A stretch of 64,000 nt of DNA from Armatimonadota bacterium (GTDB lineage Bacteria > Armatimonadota > HRBIN16), in contig BPGU01000003.1 in the NCBI GenBank assembly GCA_026003195.1, forward strand, positions 536,763 through 600,762, in the 5' to 3' direction. Below the pieces are notes generated by a model, which was not told the origin of the DNA, did not search any database, and saw nothing but the letters and a program-made list of their open reading frames with translations. Within the stretch, counting starts at the first letter, position 1. Each line of letters starts with the position of its first letter. Below, piece after piece: positions 12,637 through 26,217 of this stretch. The position numbers were made by a program, and so were the translations under genes.

Positions 12637-12653
12637 AGAAGTAAGCATAGAAA

Positions 12654-12719
12654 GGGCGATGGAGGTCCGCCTGCCCTTCGGATGAAGGGCGAACCGCCAA
12701 AAGAGGCTAATGGCTCCTG
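12654..12719 (+). ncRNA. Fluoride riboswitch (crcB motif) aptamer
   Basis: The sequence fits the fluoride aptamer. Stem P1 is GGCG (12655-12658) with CGCC (12668-12671), enclosing a loop that starts ATGGAG. An extra hairpin (GCCCTTC..GAAGGGC, 12673-12690) follows, as in optional P2 elements. Then comes AACCGCC, a short AAAAGA loop, and GGCTAATGGCTCCTG. GGAG (12661-12664) can pair with CTCC (12714-12717) to make the pseudoknot. GCTAATGGCTCC is close to the family consensus GCTGATGRCTCC. This class binds Mg2+-coordinated fluoride. It lies about 45 nt upstream of the DUF6062-like gene and should control the five-gene operon. Confidence is high because P1, the pseudoknot, the 3' consensus and an expression platform are all present. 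Confidence 0.9.
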
Positions 12720-12744
12720 TTCGTGTGAACAGTGAGCCATTTTT
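12709..12744 (+). terminator. Riboswitch expression platform: intrinsic terminator
   Basis: AATGGCTC (12709-12716) pairs with GAGCCATT (12734-12741), with an inner CTGTTC/GAACAG stem, followed by a run of T to 12744. The 5' arm contains the CTCC needed for the aptamer pseudoknot, so terminator and ligand-bound aptamer exclude each other. Fluoride should therefore turn transcription on. Confidence 0.88.
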
Positions 12745-12764: not shown

Positions 12765-13397
12765 ATGCACCTGCCGGAGATGGCACTGGAAGAGGCGTTG
12801 AGAAGAGGCGAGTGCGCGCTGTGCTGGCTGGCGCATCAGCATCTGCTGCGTCGGGTGGACACGCTCTTCAGCGAGCACGTGCACGACCCGCACTGGCGAC
12901 AATCCCTGCGCGAAGGCAATGGTTTGTGTGCCTATCACGCCCGTCTGGTGCTCTCACGAGCGGATGTCCTTTCCCTGTCGATAATCGCCGAGGACGTGCT
13001 GGCTCATATATCGATAACTGTCCCAGCCCAACGGGCGCGCCATGCGTACTCCTGCCAGTTGTGTGACGCACTGGCGCATGATGTTGCGCAAGCAGCGAAT
13101 CTGCTGGCACAGCTGCTGCGTCAGGCGGAGTGGCGGGTGCGTTACGAGGCAAGTGAGGGGCTTTGCCTGCCTCACCTGCGGCAGGTACTACAAAGCGCGT
13201 CGTCAGAGGTGCAGATGTGGCTTGTCTCTCAGGAGAGCCAGCGATGGCAAGAGTTGCGCAAGCAGCTGCGGGAGGTTATCCGCAAACACGACTACCGCTT
13301 CCAGCACGAACCATGGGGTGACGAGGTGGGCAGTTGGCGGCGGGCAATTCACAAGCTCTACGGCATTTTTGCCGAGGAGGTGCACCATGAACGATAG
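12765..13397 (+). CDS. DUF6062-like protein with duplicated Cys/His motifs
   Basis: A 210-residue cytoplasmic protein with ATG 12765 after AGGGGG. It holds two repeats of the same pattern: Cys17-x2-Cys20 then GLC55-x2-His58, and Cys97-x2-Cys100 then GLC134-x2-His137. This could bind two metal ions. The C-terminal part KHDYRFQHEPWGDEVGSWRRA resembles the conserved end of DUF6062 proteins known mainly from Firmicutes; that assignment is from memory of the family. No activity is known. As first gene behind a fluoride riboswitch and 11-nt overlapped with the next gene, it is probably part of a fluoride response. It has no signal peptide or membrane helix. Confidence 0.8.
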   Translation: MHLPEMALEEALRRGECALCWLAHQHLLRRVDTLFSEHVHDPHWRQSLREGNGLCAYHARLVLSRADVLSLSIIAEDVLAHISITVPAQRARHAYSCQLCDALAHDVAQAANLLAQLLRQAEWRVRYEASEGLCLPHLRQVLQSASSEVQMWLVSQESQRWQELRKQLREVIRKHDYRFQHEPWGDEVGSWRRAIHKLYGIFAEEVHHER

Positions 13398-13860: not shown

Positions 13861-15039
13861 ATGAACGTCTGGTGGACGGCGTTTGTCTGGATAGCCCTGG
13901 CACTTGCCGCGTCGCTGGTTTCCGTACGGCTGGCGCTGAGTGTGGCTCTGGCGGAAATCCTGTTCGGCGTGCTGGGAGGTAACGTGTTGCACATCCGTCC
14001 CAACGAGTGGATTAACTTTCTGGCAGGGCTGGGCGGCGTACTGCTGACCTTTTTGGCAGGCGCGGAAACCGATCGGCGCGTGCTGCGCAGTGAGTGGAGA
14101 GGAGCAGTCGCGCTGGGTATGTTCTCTTTCCTTGCCGCGCTGGTCGCTGAAGTAGCGGTGGTTCGGTGGGCGATGGGGTGGACATGGAGCGCTTCGCTCC
14201 TCACGGGAGTCGCACTGGCTCCTACCTCTATTGCCATCGTATACACTGTGCTGATGGATACCGGCATGAACCGTGCACCTCTGGGTAGACGGATGTTGGT
14301 CGCCTGCTTCCTGTCCAATCTGGCTGCGATGGTGTTGTTGGGCTTGGTTTTTACCAAACCGAGCATGTGGCTAGCTGTGTACCTGATTGCTATTGTGCTG
14401 GCTGCCTGGATGGCGCCTCCCGTGAGCTCCTTCTTCTTTCAGAGGTTCGGCACACATGTGACCCACCCGCAAGCGAAGTACCTGTTGTTGCTACTTCTGC
14501 TGTTCAACAGCCTGAGTGCACTTGCTGATACGCAGGCGCTGCTAGCAGCTTACCTGCTGGGATGGACACTGTCTGCAGTGTTCTCGAAGCACCGTGAGCC
14601 GCTCCACCAGATACGCGCTCTGTCCTTTACTTTCTTCACGCCCTTTTACTTCCTGCGTGCAGGCACCTATGTACAGGCTTCCATTTTCTGGAGTGGTCTG
14701 ACGGTCATCCTTTTGCTACTGGGGCTTCGTATCCTGAGCAAAGCGGTAACATCCTACCTCGTTTGCCGACGGCTAAGAATGTCGCGCAGGGAATCGATAT
14801 ACACCTCACTGGTGATGAGCACCGGTTTGACTTTCGACATTATTGCTGCTGTTTTTGGTCTATCGCATGGCTATTTGTCCTCTTCCCAGTATACTCTGCT
14901 CATCGCGGTGACTATTGGCAGCGCGCTGGTTCCTACCCTCATCGCGCAGACCTTCTTCAAGCCGTTGGTGGAGGATGGAGAGCTGCCGCGTCCAGATATG
15001 CAGAGGCAAGCGAGCCTGGCTTACGGTGAGGAGAGATAA
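13861..15039 (+). CDS. CPA2-family cation/proton antiporter
   Basis: A 392-residue integral membrane protein with about 12-13 hydrophobic helices. ATG 13861 follows AAGGAGG. It resembles the Na+/H+ exchanger fold of the KefB/CPA2 type: LLTFLAGAETD near residue 65, ALAPTSIAIVYT near 120, and a C-terminal STGLTFDIIAAVFG segment. It lacks the TrkA-N (NAD-binding) domain of true KefB/KefC proteins, so it is the membrane part only. Such antiporters are among genes reported downstream of fluoride riboswitches. In this operon it could export fluoride directly or correct pH or cation balance when HF enters. It lies 18 nt after the helical protein and 13 nt before uspA. Confidence 0.86.
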   Translation: MNVWWTAFVWIALALAASLVSVRLALSVALAEILFGVLGGNVLHIRPNEWINFLAGLGGVLLTFLAGAETDRRVLRSEWRGAVALGMFSFLAALVAEVAVVRWAMGWTWSASLLTGVALAPTSIAIVYTVLMDTGMNRAPLGRRMLVACFLSNLAAMVLLGLVFTKPSMWLAVYLIAIVLAAWMAPPVSSFFFQRFGTHVTHPQAKYLLLLLLLFNSLSALADTQALLAAYLLGWTLSAVFSKHREPLHQIRALSFTFFTPFYFLRAGTYVQASIFWSGLTVILLLLGLRILSKAVTSYLVCRRLRMSRRESIYTSLVMSTGLTFDIIAAVFGLSHGYLSSSQYTLLIAVTIGSALVPTLIAQTFFKPLVEDGELPRPDMQRQASLAYGEER

Positions 15040-19856: not shown

Positions 19857-21278
19857 TTACCGCCTCACCTCGTCCAGTACCTCGCCAGAGGGCGAAAGCA
19901 GCTGGATGTGCAGTGGCATCTGCCCCACAGCGTGCGTCGAGCAGCTCAAGCAGGGGTCAAAGCAGCGGATGACCGCCTCTACACGGTTGAGCATGCCCTC
20001 TTGAATCTGCTCGCCTTTCACGAAGTGTTTCGCCGCCTGCAAGATACCCCGGTTCATGGCGAGGTTGTTGTGTCCGGTGGCGATAATCAGGTTTGCCCAG
20101 GTAATCAACCCATCCTTGTCGATACGATAATGGTGGATGAGCGTGCCGCGGGGCGCTTCCGCCACGCCGATGCCCTCACTGCGGTTGGGTCCCGCCACTG
20201 CTTGCACGCGCGTATCCAGAATATCAGGCTCGTGGAGCAGCTGCTGGATGCGCTCCAGCCCGTACAGTATCTCAATCAGGCGGGCATAGTGGTAGTGGAA
20301 CGAGCTGAGCACCGCGCCTCGCTCCAGCGTGCGGAACTCCGCCCATGCCTCATCAGCGCGCGGCGTGCCACATCGGTCTACCAGGTTCAACCTCGCCAGC
20401 GGACCTACCCGATAGACTCCCTCCGGGTAGCCAATCGGCTTGTAGTAGGGGAACTTCAGGTAGGTCCACGGCTCCACCGCCTCGCCGATATAGTCCTGAT
20501 AATTGTTGGGGTCTATTTTATCGGCGATCACGTTACCTGCCGAATCCACCACGCGCAGCACGCCGTCGTAGTGCTCCAGCGCACCTGTGTCGGTGACCAG
20601 TCCCAAGAACAACGAGGGGAAGTTTGCAAAGGTCTGTATCTCCTCGCTGAACTGATGGAGGATGCTTTTGAACCAGGCAATAGCGCGCTGGGTGATATCG
20701 ATGGCTTCCGGAATGCTCGCCAGCATCTGCTCACGCTTCTCTGCGCTGAGTGGTTGCGCCACTCCGCCCGGCACAATCCACGAGGGGTGAATGCGCTTGC
20801 CTGCCAGCCACTCAATCATCTGCTGACCGATCTGGCGCAGACGGATACCATCGCGCGCCATTTGTGGGTTGGTCTGCACAACGCCCACAATGTTGCGTAC
20901 GGCAGGGTCGGCATCCATACCCAGCAGGAAGTCCGGCGAGGAGAGATGGAAGAAGCTGAGCGCGTGCGACTGTACCAGTTGCGCCAGATTGAAGATTCGC
21001 CGCAGCTTCTCCGCCGTTTCGGGGATGCGCACCGCCAGCAGCGCGTCACATGCCTTGCCGGAAGCGACGAGATGGCTGACGGGACATATCCCGCAGATGC
21101 GCGCAGTGAGCGCAGGCATTTCACTGAAGCGCCGTCCCTCGCACAGCTTCTCGAAACCGCGAAACTGGGTAATATGGATACGCGCATCGCGCACGATGCC
21201 CTGCTCATCCAGCTGGATGGTGATTTTGGCGTGTCCCTCGATGCGCGTGATAGGGTCTATGGTAATCGTTTGTGCCAT
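19857..21278 (-). CDS. hoxH: [NiFe]-hydrogenase large subunit, HoxH type (group 3d-like)
   Basis: A 473-residue catalytic subunit. ATG 21278 follows AAGGAGG. The N-terminal ligand motif is [10 protein letters not shown] (Cys62, Cys65, His69) and the C-terminal one DPCLSCSTH (Cys443, Cys446, His449). These four Cys hold the Ni-Fe(CN)2CO site. About 24 residues after His449 would be removed by the maturation protease. With HoxY, HoxU, HoxF and HoxE this makes a cytoplasmic, NAD(H)-linked bidirectional hydrogenase: H2 + NAD+ to NADH + H+. The large subunit was placed in group 3d from the operon, not from a tree. It lies 11 nt after hoxY. Confidence 0.94.
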
Positions 21279-21289
21279 GTGGTACCTCC

Positions 21290-21823
21290 TTACGCTCCAA
21301 AGCGCGTCAGCTTCGCCATGTCCGGCATCCGGTCTGCCAGAAGGTCGCTGAGCGCGAGGAAGATGGTCTCTGCCGAAGGCGGACATCCCGGAATAAACAC
21401 GTCCACCTTCACCACCTCGTGTACCGGACGCGCCTTCTCGATGAGCGCGGGAATAACCTCACGCGGCACCTGCGGGTGCAAAGTCACGTTCTCGAGATAC
21501 GCCCGCTGTAAAACCGCGTTCACTCCAAAGGGGTTGCGCATGGAGGGCACATTGCCGGTCACCGCGCAATCGCCAAAAGCCACCAGTATCTTCGTGCGCT
21601 CGCGCACCATTCGGATCTTGTGCAGGTCTTCTTCGCTGCTCACCGCCCCTTCGACCAGGGTGATATCTACCTCCTCGGGAAACTCCTTCAGGTCTACCAG
21701 GGGACTATAGACTAAATCCGCCTGCTGGAACACTTCGATCAGCCGCTCATCCATGTCCAGAAAGGACATGTGACACCCGGAGCAGCCGTCCAGCCACACG
21801 GTTGCTATGCGTTTTTTGCTCAT
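21290..21823 (-). CDS. hoxY: [NiFe]-hydrogenase small subunit, HoxY type
   Basis: A 177-residue subunit holding the proximal 4Fe-4S cluster. Ligands visible are Cys14 and Cys17 (LDGCSGCH), Cys in [10 protein letters not shown], and Cys in [10 protein letters not shown]. The short length with only four cluster Cys and no Tat signal is typical of cytoplasmic group 3 hydrogenases. It passes electrons from the Ni-Fe site to HoxU/HoxF. The start at 21823 overlaps the stop of hoxU by 4 nt (ATGA), implying translational coupling. The family is certain; physiological direction (H2 uptake or evolution) is not. Confidence 0.94.
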
Positions 21824-22539
21824 CGCCTTTCCTCCCTCATCATGGTGAGGTAGGGCAGAAACTGCCGTTTCTTCAGTCGCTCGGACACCGGCTTGCCCTT
21901 CTCAAACAGCGCGCCGGTGGGGCAGACGTTCACACACTTGCCGCAGCTGGTGCAGGTCTCGGATTCGCCCCACGGCTGGCTCAGGTCAGTGATGACCCGA
22001 CTGTCTATACCACGCCCCATCACATCCCAGGTGTGTGCCCCCTCGATCTCGTCGCACACGCGCACGCACCGCGTGCACAGGATGCATCGGTTGTGGTCTA
22101 CCACAAACCGCTCGTGGCTGGCGTCCACAGGCAGGCGCGGAAAACGGTAGGGCACGCTGACATGCGTCATGCCCAGTATCTGTGCCATATTTTGCAACTC
22201 ACAGTGCCCGTTCACCACACACACCGAGCAGATGTGGTTGCGCTCTGAAAAGAGCAACTCCAGCACCATCCGACGGTACTTCTGCAGTCGCTCGGACTGG
22301 GTGTACACCTCCATCCCCTCCTCTACCCGCGTGACGCACGCAGGTAGCAGCCGCGATACACCCTTGATCTCTACCAGACACAGTCGGCATGCACCGATGG
22401 GTGTTAGCCCTTCCAGGTTACACAGCGTGGGGATGAAGATACCGTTTTGCCGGGCGACCTCCAGGATGGTCTCATCTTCGCGACCGCTCACGTCGCGATC
22501 GTCTATCTTCAGCGTTTTGACGCGAACTGGCTGATTCAT
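21820..22539 (-). CDS. hoxU: Hydrogenase diaphorase iron-sulfur subunit, HoxU type (NuoG N-terminal-like)
   Basis: A 239-residue electron-transfer protein. ATG 22539 follows GGAGGATC; the open frame extends upstream but only as a shadow of hoxF. It has an N-terminal 2Fe-2S domain ([15 protein letters not shown]), a His-Cys3 4Fe-4S motif ([15 protein letters not shown]), and two ferredoxin-type clusters ([22 protein letters not shown]). This is the NuoG-like layout of HoxU. It bridges HoxF (NADH site) and HoxY. It lies 11 nt after hoxF and overlaps hoxY by 4 nt. Confidence 0.94.
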
Positions 22540-22550
22540 CCGTGATCCTC

Positions 22551-24182
22551 CTACTGACGCATCTGACAGACCCCGGCAGGGCACTGCTTGTCCACGATGT
22601 GGGCAATGTACTCCTCGCGGAAGTACTGGAGCGTGCTCAGCACGGGGTTGGGGGCAGTTTGTCCCAGCCCACACAGGCTGGTGTACTTCACCATGTCGCA
22701 CAGTTCCTCCAGCAGGGCAAGGTCTTCCATGGTCGCCTCGCCGGAGGTAATCTTGTTCAAAAGGTGGTACATCTGCGCGGTGCCAACGCGGCAGGGCACG
22801 CACTTGCCGCAGGACTCGGAAACGCAGAAGTCCATAAAGAACTTCGCCACGTCCACCATGCAGGAGGTCTCATCCATGACGATCATGCCTCCCGAGCCCA
22901 TAATGGAGCCGACTTTTGCCAGCGACTCGTAGTCCACAGGCATGTCCAGGTACTGCTCGGGGATACATCCACCGGAGGGACCGCCTGTCTGCACCGCTTT
23001 GAACCGGTGTCCGTCGGGTATACCACCGCCGATGTCGAAAATAATCTCGCGCAGGGTGATACCCATCGGTACCTCAATCAAGCCGGTGTTCCTCACGCGC
23101 CCTGCGAGCGCGAAGACCTTCGTTCCCTTGCTCTTTTCTGTGCCGATGCTGGCGAACCAGTCGCCGCCGTTGCGGATGATGGGTGCGACGTTGGCGAAGG
23201 TCTCCACGTTGTTGATCAGGGTGGGATAACCCCATAATCCGTACTCGGCAGGGTAGGGTGGACGGGGACGTGGCTGTCCGCGCTTGCCCTCGATGGAGGC
23301 GATGAGGGCTGTTTCCTCGCCGCACACAAAGGCACCCGCGCCGAGACGGATATCCACGTGGAAGCTGAAGGTCGTTCCGCAGATGTTATTCCCCAGCAAA
23401 CCAAGGCGCTCCGCTTGCCGAATGGCGGTGCGCAGACGCTTGACTGCCAGCGGGTACTCCGCGCGCACGTACAGGAACCCCTGGCTGGCTCCTACCGCAT
23501 AAGCGGCGATCGCCATGCCCTCCAGCACGCGGTGGGGGTCGCTCTCCAGCACGCTGCGATCCATAAAGGCGCCAGGGTCGCCTTCGTCCGCGTTACAGAT
23601 GACGAATTTGCGACTGCCTCCCGCTTTGGCAACGGTGCTCCACTTCAAGCCCGTCGGATACCCCGCGCCGCCTCGCCCGCGCAAGCCGCTACGGGTAATC
23701 TCGTCGATGACTTCCTGAGGCGTCATCTCCTCCAGCACACGAGCCAGCGCGGTGTAACCGTCGCGGGCGATGTAGTCCTCTATCTTTTCGGGGTCAATCA
23801 CCCCGCTGTTTTCCAGCACAATCTTGTACTGCTTGGTGAAGAAGGACATGTCGGAGGGACATACCAGTTGCTCCACCGGCTTCTTCCCCAGGCTCTCCAC
23901 AATCGCAGGGGCATCCTGCTCGGTGACCCCCTGGTACATCACCCCGTCGGGTTCTACGAGCATCAGCGGTCCCGCGGTGCACAACCCCAGGCAACCGACC
24001 CCCTTGACCTCGCACTCACTCTCCAGCCCACGCTGGGCGATTTCGTTCTGCAGGGCTTCCCGGACGCGGTCGCTCCCAGCAGACAAACACCCAGCCGCTA
24101 CGCATATCTTGATGCGGTGTCGAGGTTCGGGGCGAGCCTCTTCGTGAGACTCTGCCAGCCTGCGCAGTTCTTCCGGTGTCAT
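22551..24182 (-). CDS. hoxF: Hydrogenase diaphorase, NADH/FMN subunit, HoxF type
   Basis: A 543-residue NuoF-like subunit. ATG 24182 overlaps the hoxE stop (ATGA) and has GGGAGGTGG upstream; GTG at 24194 lies inside that ribosome site. Residues 25-110 are a thioredoxin-like 2Fe-2S domain (CVAAGC, CLGLC). The NADH/FMN domain has [27 protein letters not shown] and [10 protein letters not shown]. The 4Fe-4S motif is SCGKCVPCR with a later Cys in TSLCGLG. A C-terminal CPAGVCQ is also present. It reduces NAD+ with electrons from H2, or runs in reverse. Confidence 0.94.
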
Positions 24183-24673
24183 TGGTCGGTCCACCTCCCA
24201 ATCCGTTGTAGCGCCTCTTCGGGCGTCACCTTACCTGCTACCTCGCCGTCGAAGACCACTGCGGGCGCCAAGCCACAGGCACCGATACAACGAGCCGTGA
24301 GCAGTGACAGTTTACCGTCCGCTGTGGTCTCGCCCGGTTGAATCTGGTATTTCTCCGAAATGGCAGCCACCACGTGGGGGGCGCCTTTGATGTAGCAGGC
24401 GGTTCCCATGCACACCACGCAGGTGTGTTCCCCTTGCGGCTTCAGGGTGAAGAAGTGGTAGAAAGTAGCCACTCCGTACACCTTACTCAAAGGCACCCGA
24501 AGCGCCTTTGCCACATATTGCAACGCCTCTGTTTCCAGATACCCAAAGGTCTGCTGGACCGAGTGCAGCGTTTCAATCAGCGCATTGGGGTCATACCCAT
24601 GCCGACGCATAGTGGCTTCCACGATACGCCACCGTTTGTCGTCCGAGGGTGGAGAGGGCTTGGTGAAATGCAT
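24179..24673 (-). CDS. hoxE: Hydrogenase diaphorase 2Fe-2S subunit, HoxE type (NuoE-like)
   Basis: A 164-residue thioredoxin-like 2Fe-2S protein. I chose ATG 24673, with GGAGG 11 nt upstream; an upstream open frame to 24781 starts in the leader. The helical N-terminus ([13 protein letters not shown]) and [10 protein letters not shown] are typical of NuoE. Ligands are CMGTAC and CIGACGLAP. HoxE with HoxFU forms the diaphorase half of the enzyme and may link it to quinone or ferredoxin systems. It is the first gene of a five-gene operon (hoxEFUYH), which is preceded by a leader of about 230 nt. Stop and hoxF start overlap by 4 nt. Confidence 0.93.
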
Positions 24674-24782
24674 GTTCGCTGCTTCCTCCGTTTGCTCTAG
24701 TGACGCTTTTGGGGCAAAGGGGAGAACGGCGGGCTTCGGGACAAAAATGCCTACCACCCTTTGGAACGCATCTATATTCAAC

Positions 24783-24870
24783 GGCGTTCGAGCCGCAGGG
24801 TTCCCCTTCGCCAGAGCTTTCGGAGCACCTTTTGCTTTCTCGTACTCAACGAGATCGCATTGTGGTGCTC
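24783..24870 (-). ncRNA. Candidate structured leader RNA of the hox operon
   Basis: On the minus strand GAGCACC (24864-24870) and GGTGCTC (24823-24829) close a 48-nt element containing an inner hairpin CTCGT-tgagt-ACGAG (24853-24839). Next to it GGCG..CGCC (24812-24783) can close a second element rich in short GC blocks. A T-run follows at about 24743-24747 after GGTAGGCA. The leader spans about 230 nt from promoter to hoxE. It matches no riboswitch class I know (not crcB, cobalamin, NiCo or c-di-AMP by eye). Structure was judged by eye only. Confidence 0.45.
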
Positions 24871-24908
24871 ATTTTCATTCTTTTCGATACACTGTATTTA
24901 CCAATTTC

Positions 24909-24938
24909 ACTATATCATAAATAGAGTGTATTTTGCAA
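24909..24938 (-). promoter_or_regulatory. Likely promoter of the hox operon
   Basis: On the minus strand TTGCAA (24938-24933), 18 bp, then TATAGT (24914-24909). The neighbourhood is unusually AT-rich for this genome. The start would lie near 24902, giving a leader of about 230 nt before hoxE. Confidence 0.6.
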
Positions 24939-24957
24939 GTGCAAATGAAGGGATAGC

Positions 24958-26217
24958 CTACCTGAACCATACCGGCTCTCCCTGCTCTGTATCGGTTCGC
25001 CTTCCGTAGAACGGAACCAGTGTCACATCGCCTCTACCGCTCATCTGTTCCGCCACGCGCTTGCCTCCGTCATCCACGCCGTCCTCACCCACGCTGTAGA
25101 GCAGGAAGCCCCGCTCCGAAGGCTTGTACACGAACCGCCCGCCCGTGAAGGGGTCCCTGTCCAGGTCCGACACACCCGCGTCCTCCAGCATCGCAGGGTA
25201 GGAACCGTGCCTGAGCCGATAGGCACGCACGGCAGCCGCACAGCCGAGCAAGCGGATGCGACACGTAGTATGACCTGAAGTACGTTTCAACGGTTCGAGC
25301 GGTGGCAGCAGGATTTTGGTAACGGGATGATGTGGCTCTTCGACATGCTGCCACAGGTTGACGGGTTTGGAGGTTTCTCCTTCCACTCGGCGAAGGTAAG
25401 TATGTACCTCCCGGGCGGCACGTCGCAGGTTCAGCCATCTGGGATTCCAGCGAAGGAGACGGCTGTCGGAGAGCATTCGCCAAGCATCGTACTGCCCCGC
25501 ATACAGGTCGTGTAGCAGCGTCAGGATGAAGTCGCGTTCCACGCGCACTATCTGAGCGAGCGGAACACGCTTTTTTTCCCACTCTCGTATCGCCTGTGTC
25601 AGCTGCTGGCATTGCTCAGCGGGCAAGCTGCCCAACAGTTCGCTCATCCTCCTGTGCACCGCCGCTTGCATGGAGGAGCTGGTGTAGTAGTGCATCAGCG
25701 AGCCTTGAGTGCGAATCTGCTCGGAGAGCAGCAGCACCGTGCGATAATTTTCCACCGCGCGAGAGTAATCGCCTTCCTGCGCTGCCATCGCCATGTCCAG
25801 CGCCTCGATGTTCGCCCATCGGCGAAACTCTGCCAGCTCGGGAAACTGCCAGCCGGGCATGTATTCCATAATCACCACGCACGGCTTGTGCAGATGACGA
25901 CGGTATTCCAGGCGCACAGGCTGCATCTGGCGCAGCAGGTAGCGAGCGAGTCCGGGACGGTCCAGGCGTATCTCGCGCCGTGAGGGAAACAGCTCGCGCT
26001 CGGCATAGGTGAGGGCAAAATCGGTTCGGAAAACCTGAGCGGTATACGCGGCGAGGGAACGGTATACATCGTAGGGGTTGTCCATCGGCTCAGGCGGTCG
26101 TTGAGGACGTGGGATATTCACGGGAGCCGTCCACCACCGCACCGCCAGCACGATAGCCACCACTCCCGCCAGCAAGGAGGTCAGGCAACCGGTTCTGCAC
26201 CCTCTCGGGGTTCGCAT
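24958..26217 (-). CDS. Unknown membrane-anchored protein with pseudopilin-like C-terminus
   Basis: A 419-residue protein with one N-terminal transmembrane segment (about residues 10-27) and a large extracytoplasmic, mostly helical region. The C-terminal 100 residues (AAAVRAYRLRHGSYPAMLEDAG.., DPFTGGRFVYKPSERGFLLYSVGEDGVDDGG) resemble the C-terminal part of type II secretion/pseudopilin-like proteins, where such Asp-rich loops bind calcium. The full family is not recognised. Its start (ATG 26217) lies 4 nt after the stop of the methyltransferase gene, with the ribosome site (GAAAGG) in that gene's last codons, so it is coupled to it. Function unknown. Confidence 0.78.
   Translation of the reverse strand: MRTPRGCRTGCLTSLLAGVVAIVLAVRWWTAPVNIPRPQRPPEPMDNPYDVYRSLAAYTAQVFRTDFALTYAERELFPSRREIRLDRPGLARYLLRQMQPVRLEYRRHLHKPCVVIMEYMPGWQFPELAEFRRWANIEALDMAMAAQEGDYSRAVENYRTVLLLSEQIRTQGSLMHYYTSSSMQAAVHRRMSELLGSLPAEQCQQLTQAIREWEKKRVPLAQIVRVERDFILTLLHDLYAGQYDAWRMLSDSRLLRWNPRWLNLRRAAREVHTYLRRVEGETSKPVNLWQHVEEPHHPVTKILLPPLEPLKRTSGHTTCRIRLLGCAAAVRAYRLRHGSYPAMLEDAGVSDLDRDPFTGGRFVYKPSERGFLLYSVGEDGVDDGGKRVAEQMSGRGDVTLVPFYGRRTDTEQGEPVWFR

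Follow-up and report, generated by a model that had tools for sequence, protein, structure and literature searches.

Translational riboswitches, ribosomal-protein leaders and RNA thermometers are structured 5′ leaders in which the Shine-Dalgarno region takes part in alternative pairings. The leader described here resembles them in its length, in a covarying hairpin and in a complement of the Shine-Dalgarno region that also pairs locally; unlike them, it has no known sensor domain, belongs to one gene in one genus and lacks the anti-Shine-Dalgarno part in one relative (G001). In cyanobacteria, LexA and AbrB-like proteins have been reported to control the hox genes (PMC4463661). The hox transcript of Lyngbya majuscula starts 27 bp before hoxE and therefore has no long leader (PMC2674450). 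The locus analyzed here shares with these promoters hoxE as the first gene and an extended −10 box, but differs in its long leader, absent in Lyngbya; the control described for the cyanobacterial promoters is by DNA-binding proteins (PMC2674450, PMC4463661). Searches of an open-access library listed no title on control of a hox operon at the RNA level or on a leader RNA for one.

We analyzed the hox operon in a 64,000-nucleotide stretch of Armatimonadota DNA (the window; its genome is labelled G000) and in related genomes. The features are collected in Table 1. Translation of hoxE starts at the ATG at 24673-24671 (−), with a GGAGG at 24689-24685, and a gap of 284 bases separates hoxE from the upstream gene, which ends at 24958. 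A promoter scan of 23500-26000 returned a single sigma-70-like site; since shuffled sequence yields 0.7 such sites on average, this site alone is not beyond chance. On visual inspection the promoter is recognisable in each of the six genomes with contig coverage, including that of the window; the scanner passes it in three (G000, G005 and G002) and fails in the other three. The arrangement seen in the window was thus found by the scanner in G005 and G002 and by eye in G001, G004 and G009. Taken together, the promoter and the hoxE start predict a leader of about 230 nt, the length given by an earlier, sequence-only reading of this DNA. That reading had named a promoter closer to hoxE as a finding that would speak against it; none was found in 23500-26000. 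The best models for the large and small hydrogenase subunits were VhuA and VhuG, respectively, both below cut-off, and no Hox-named model was among the matches listed.

Table 1. Features of the hox operon and its predicted leader (positions in the window)
Feature	Positions	Strand	Basis or remark
Promoter TTGCAA-18-TGATATAGT, sigma-70-like, extended −10	24909-24938	−	9/12 matches
Inverted repeat GATATAGT-N15-AGTGTATC, candidate operator	24886-24916	−	spans −10 and transcript start
Predicted 5′ leader of hox operon	24674-24902	−	predicted transcript start
Hairpin P1, GAGCACC 24870-24864 / GGTGCTC 24829-24823	24823-24870	−	covariation
Inner P1b	TGC 24859-24857 / GCA 24835-24833; CTCG 24853-24850 / CGAG 24842-24839	−	
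Putative anti-Shine-Dalgarno TGC-GA-TCTC-GTT, P1 loop	24848-24859	−	RNAalifold; pair counts, shuffles
P2 domain, helix GGCGAAGGGGA 24812-24802 / TCCCCTTTGCC 24723-24713	24713-24812	−	predicted folds; covariance model R1
Hairpin P3 CGGC-TCGAAC-GCCG	24782-24795	−	weak support
Conserved motif TTGAATATAGATG (TGAACATAGATG in relatives), after P3	24769-24781	−	lost in G007, G009
ATTTTTG run	24742-24748	−	in 6/8; within P2
hoxE Shine-Dalgarno region AAACGGAGGAAGCA	24679-24692	−	relatives keep context GACGGAGGAAGCG
hoxE, first gene of hox operon	24179-24673	−	NCBIfam PRK07571 HoxE, 258.6 bits vs cut-off 224
Operon downstream of hoxE, whole	19857-24194	−	
hoxF	22551-24194	−	hox operon
hoxU	21820-22536	−	hox operon; NCBIfam cut-off passed
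Hydrogenase small subunit	21290-21823	−	hox operon
Hydrogenase large subunit	19857-21278	−	hox operon

A close hoxE is encoded in eight of the ten genomes of the genus (G003 and G006 lack it), and in each of these eight, which make up the whole sample, a recognisable leader precedes the gene. Named relatives of hoxE come from metagenome-assembled genomes titled Armatimonadetes, Chthonomonadia or plain bacterium. Two leaders are cut by contig ends, 158 nt (G007) and 227 nt (G008) before hoxE. Over 15 pairs from six genomes, leader identity was 0.51-0.84, compared with 0.78-0.95 for coding sequence and 0.46-0.86 for third codon positions. Being below the coding sequence and near third positions, the leader is therefore poorly kept in sequence, and what is kept is its architecture.

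Folding of the leader was more favorable than that of dinucleotide shuffles (z = −3.13; none of 200 equally stable), as was that of 24674-24905 (z = −2.79; 1 of 200 as good). Fold z values ranged from −1.62 to −3.13 in the seven leaders that hold P1; the cut G007 leader gave +0.80. Consistent with the failure of the sequence-only reading to match the leader to a known riboswitch, an Rfam 15 search gave no match at gathering score in the leader or in seven loci of relatives, the best sub-threshold match to the leader reaching 12.4 bits against 45.

The perfect 7-bp stem GAGCACC/GGTGCTC, proposed before any relative was compared, is exact in the window and covaries among the relatives, a check suggested by the same reading. 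Parts of P1 are out of place in alignments A1, A4 and A6, so the helix was aligned by hand, with a bulge permitted in G008 and a gap in G009. Although the tree carries about 21 substitutions, 56 of 63 pair cells over seven leaders are complementary. When the 3′ arms were permuted, a fraction of 0.0024 of the 5040 arrangements reached 56/63, and energies gave the same result. In tree simulations with a similar number of changes, none of 1036 helices reached 56 (best, 52). The stem reads GAGCACC/GGTGCTC in G000, GAGCAC in G005, TGAGCACC in G004, CACAGCACC/GGTGCTGTG in G002, TCAGCACC in G001 and GCTGCGC/GCGCAGC in G008, and is bulged in G009. These comparisons indicate that the P1 helix is backed by compensatory changes, as expected of a structured cis-regulatory leader. 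Because the relatives kept the shape of the leader while its letters changed, it is probably a control element. We consider it very likely that the leader is a real structured element and probable, with less assurance, that it is a regulatory one; judged from its sequence, it is a new candidate cis-regulatory RNA restricted to the genus.

How might such a leader act? Applied to five leaders in alignment A6, where the arms of P1 are misaligned in part, RNAalifold proposed unprompted that the P1 loop pairs with the Shine-Dalgarno region of hoxE. Out of 11 pairs, the putative anti-Shine-Dalgarno sequence could form 10 in G000, 9 in G005, 11 in G002, 10 in G009 and 11 in G004. A sixth leader, G008, has another pairing in its loop, CCTCCAGA/TTTGGAGG, with a changed Shine-Dalgarno context (8 pairs by eye); the seventh, G001, lacks the entire P1b and hence the anti-Shine-Dalgarno sequence, and retains GACGGAGGGAGCG. 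Since the loop sequence also closes P1b, P1b and the Shine-Dalgarno pairing would be mutually exclusive. In the switch we envisage, P2 would fold away the middle of the leader and bring the Shine-Dalgarno region near P1, whose loop would carry the complement of that region. With the loop self-paired as P1b, the hoxE ribosome site would be free; on opening of P1b, the loop could pair with the Shine-Dalgarno region and translation would be blocked. A small molecule, a protein or temperature are candidates for shifting this balance. Tentatively, and on sequence grounds, we regard the competition between P1b and the loop-Shine-Dalgarno pairing as the best single mechanism.

Several observations bear on this proposal. 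The loss of P1b in G001 counts against it. The loop-Shine-Dalgarno pairing was only marginally better than that of shuffled loops, with a combined p of 0.056 (dinucleotide) or 0.010 (mononucleotide), for sequences that are not independent. When loops and Shine-Dalgarno regions were swapped between leaders, own pairs were no better (0.40 of permutations), and in four of the six long-loop leaders other segments pair better with the Shine-Dalgarno region. A G-to-A change in G009 keeps P1b and breaks one anti-Shine-Dalgarno pair, which favours P1b and counts against the switch. By eye, invariant columns of alignment A6 amount to about 11/15 in the P1b 5′ arm and loop and about 3/15 in the 3′ arm; a second partner for the 5′ arm would be expected to leave such a difference. 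The P1b motif GAAYATAGATG has four sites in its own genome (control, 1). With P1 kept, the loop-to-site pairing would be a pseudoknot, which is beyond ordinary folding programs, and the predicted folds display none. What they do display is a pairing of the Shine-Dalgarno site with the first hoxE codons; selected masking of the site by these codons was rejected, as it did not exceed that by random synonymous codons in any of the eight leaders. Two further pairings were tried and discarded: with its 5′ strand blocked, the 3′ strand of P2 pairs with the site in only four of eight leaders, and the transcript 5′ end pairs with the sequence preceding the Shine-Dalgarno site no better in own (4.57 pairs) than in swapped (4.55) combinations.

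A leader that is structured yet passive, in which P2 and a P1 close to the 5′ end shield the long hox mRNA against degradation or keep the ribosome site open without any sensing or switch, is in our view somewhat unlikely. It would agree with the predicted formation of P1 in all seven leaders (probability 0.82-1.00), with the dispensability of the apical parts (G001 has no P1b, and its P1 stem is kept) and with a conserved switch partner that is not proven, but it leaves unexplained both the conserved P1b 5′ arm and loop and the conserved unpaired motifs described below. Translation of a leader peptide from a reading frame through the P1 loop can be given hardly any credence. By eye, G002, G004, G005 and G009 have an open frame that starts at GTG or ATG and whose first residues are similar, but G000 and G008 have no start in frame, the frame differs in G001 and no ribosome site precedes it.

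Conserved position, compensatory changes in P1 and a single copy at hoxE are established for the leader; that it is a cis-acting structured RNA, confined to a single Armatimonadota genus, that acts on the hox operon through a Shine-Dalgarno switch is a reading we favour with reserve, as plausible but short of probable. A covarying leader tied to hoxE in one lineage offers something concrete to test. Should the switch be real, it would show a lineage represented here solely by metagenome bins (where titled) tuning its hydrogen metabolism after transcription start; should it not, the leader would usefully illustrate how such an element can be structured yet passive.

Further downstream, the sequence-only reading had noted a second GC-closed element followed by a T-run. 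The element is best read as the long-range helix P2, which encloses hairpin P3; the T-run does not follow P2 but falls within it. P2 was predicted in all eight leaders to differing degree, from 6.9 of 16 expected pairs (G007) to 20.4 of 22 (G008). Its arms, which are G- and C-rich and pair promiscuously, beat shuffled arms in four leaders (G000, G005, G001 and G008; p 0.001-0.016) and not in G002, G007, G009 and G004. The permutation test for P2 gave 0.05 with G008, in which both arms changed together (GTGCAAG/CTTGCAC), and 0.41 without it; for P3 it was not significant (0.16). On alignment A3, 93.8% of the P2 and P3 pairs hold, compared with 58-68% for slid versions, with covariation no greater than in shuffles. 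We conclude that P2 is established in part.

The T-run raises the question of transcription attenuation, which we consider very improbable. A hairpin with a T-run occurs in G001 and G008, but these are two of seven leaders scanned: no terminator in the direction of the transcript was found in G000, G005, G002, G009 and G004, and the T-run is absent in G007 and G009.

Two unpaired motifs of the P2 domain, GAACATAGATG and ATTTTTG, are common to six of the eight leaders with small variations; G007 and G009 lack both. That the two were lost together suggests a single function, and at the same time argues against a core required by all leaders. A small-molecule riboswitch (for Ni, NAD(H), flavin or another ligand), with the P2 domain around P3 and these motifs as its aptamer, could account for their conservation inside a closed domain and for their loss together. 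We nevertheless regard it as improbable: it matches no Rfam class, the ligand-binding core expected in all members of a riboswitch class is missing in two of eight leaders, and the distribution of the element, given next, is that of one copy per genome, found neither at nikR nor at other loci. Less probable still is the more specific proposal that the P2 domain, together with its motifs GAACATAGATG and ATTTTTG, is a new hydrogenase-dedicated riboswitch or protein-sensing leader that would sense the hydrogen or electron-carrier state and set the masking of the hoxE ribosome site by the P1 loop.

Covariance model R1, which describes the P2 domain and was trained on six leaders, found the two leaders kept out of training at the correct position, G009 with E 0.0031 and G008 with E 0.02, and so recovers all eight leaders of the genus. 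Searches of the ten genus genomes gave no convincing copy beyond hoxE and no extra copy in the genome of the window. Among 291 genomes of the phylum, scanned with stricter filters that miss G008 and G009, seven had matches at E ≤ 0.1: the six training leaders and a weak match, L139 (G185:C72:384-438; E 0.09), in a different family of the phylum. The element was not found in 75 more distant hox loci either; thus, no convincing relative of the leader was found outside the genus in these 291 genomes and 75 loci, which further weighs against a riboswitch. No Rfam family was detected near hoxE in 20 more distant loci (19 of 80, and L012).

The suggestion of the sequence-only reading that the leader responds to Ni or to redox state is not supported: the element occurs only at hoxE and is absent from nikR and the adjoining transporter, and the nikR promoters have a different repeat. 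Control could also be exerted at the promoter, by a DNA-binding regulator on the inverted repeat over the −10 box; NikR is present in nine of the ten genus genomes. The pattern GATATAsT-N15-AGTATATC occurs at hoxE in six of the ten, that is, in all six that hold the stretch (with a spacer of 18 in G002), and at one other site across all ten genomes; a control pattern gave none. NikR operators have been described as inverted repeats spanning 27-28 bp (PMC545781; PMC7055735). The hox repeat is likewise a widely spaced inverted repeat in a genome that encodes NikR, but differs from these operators in spacer and half-site (PMC545781, PMC7055735). What is seen at the nikR promoters of this genus is not the hox repeat but GTGTTAC repeats, which makes NikR unlikely to act at hox. 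The left half of the repeat is the −10 box itself, and promoter-level control leaves the covariation of P1 in the transcript unexplained; as an account of the locus we therefore think it doubtful at best.

GTGTTAC has been described as the NikR half-site of delta-proteobacteria (PMC545781). Among the upstream stretches of five nikR loci (L148-L152), the repeats are clear by eye in four, for example as GTGTTAC-N13-GTGTTAC just before nikR in L148; the motif occurs only once in G002. These repeats likely reflect NikR autoregulation. In G000, nikR is followed by what we read as a metal-type ABC transporter. Elsewhere in the window, the sole Rfam match is a fluoride riboswitch at 12646-12726 (+) (RF01734, 41.1 bits against a cut-off of 34), which stands upstream of two reading frames, 12765-13397 and 13861-15039, the second of which we read as cation-antiporter-like.
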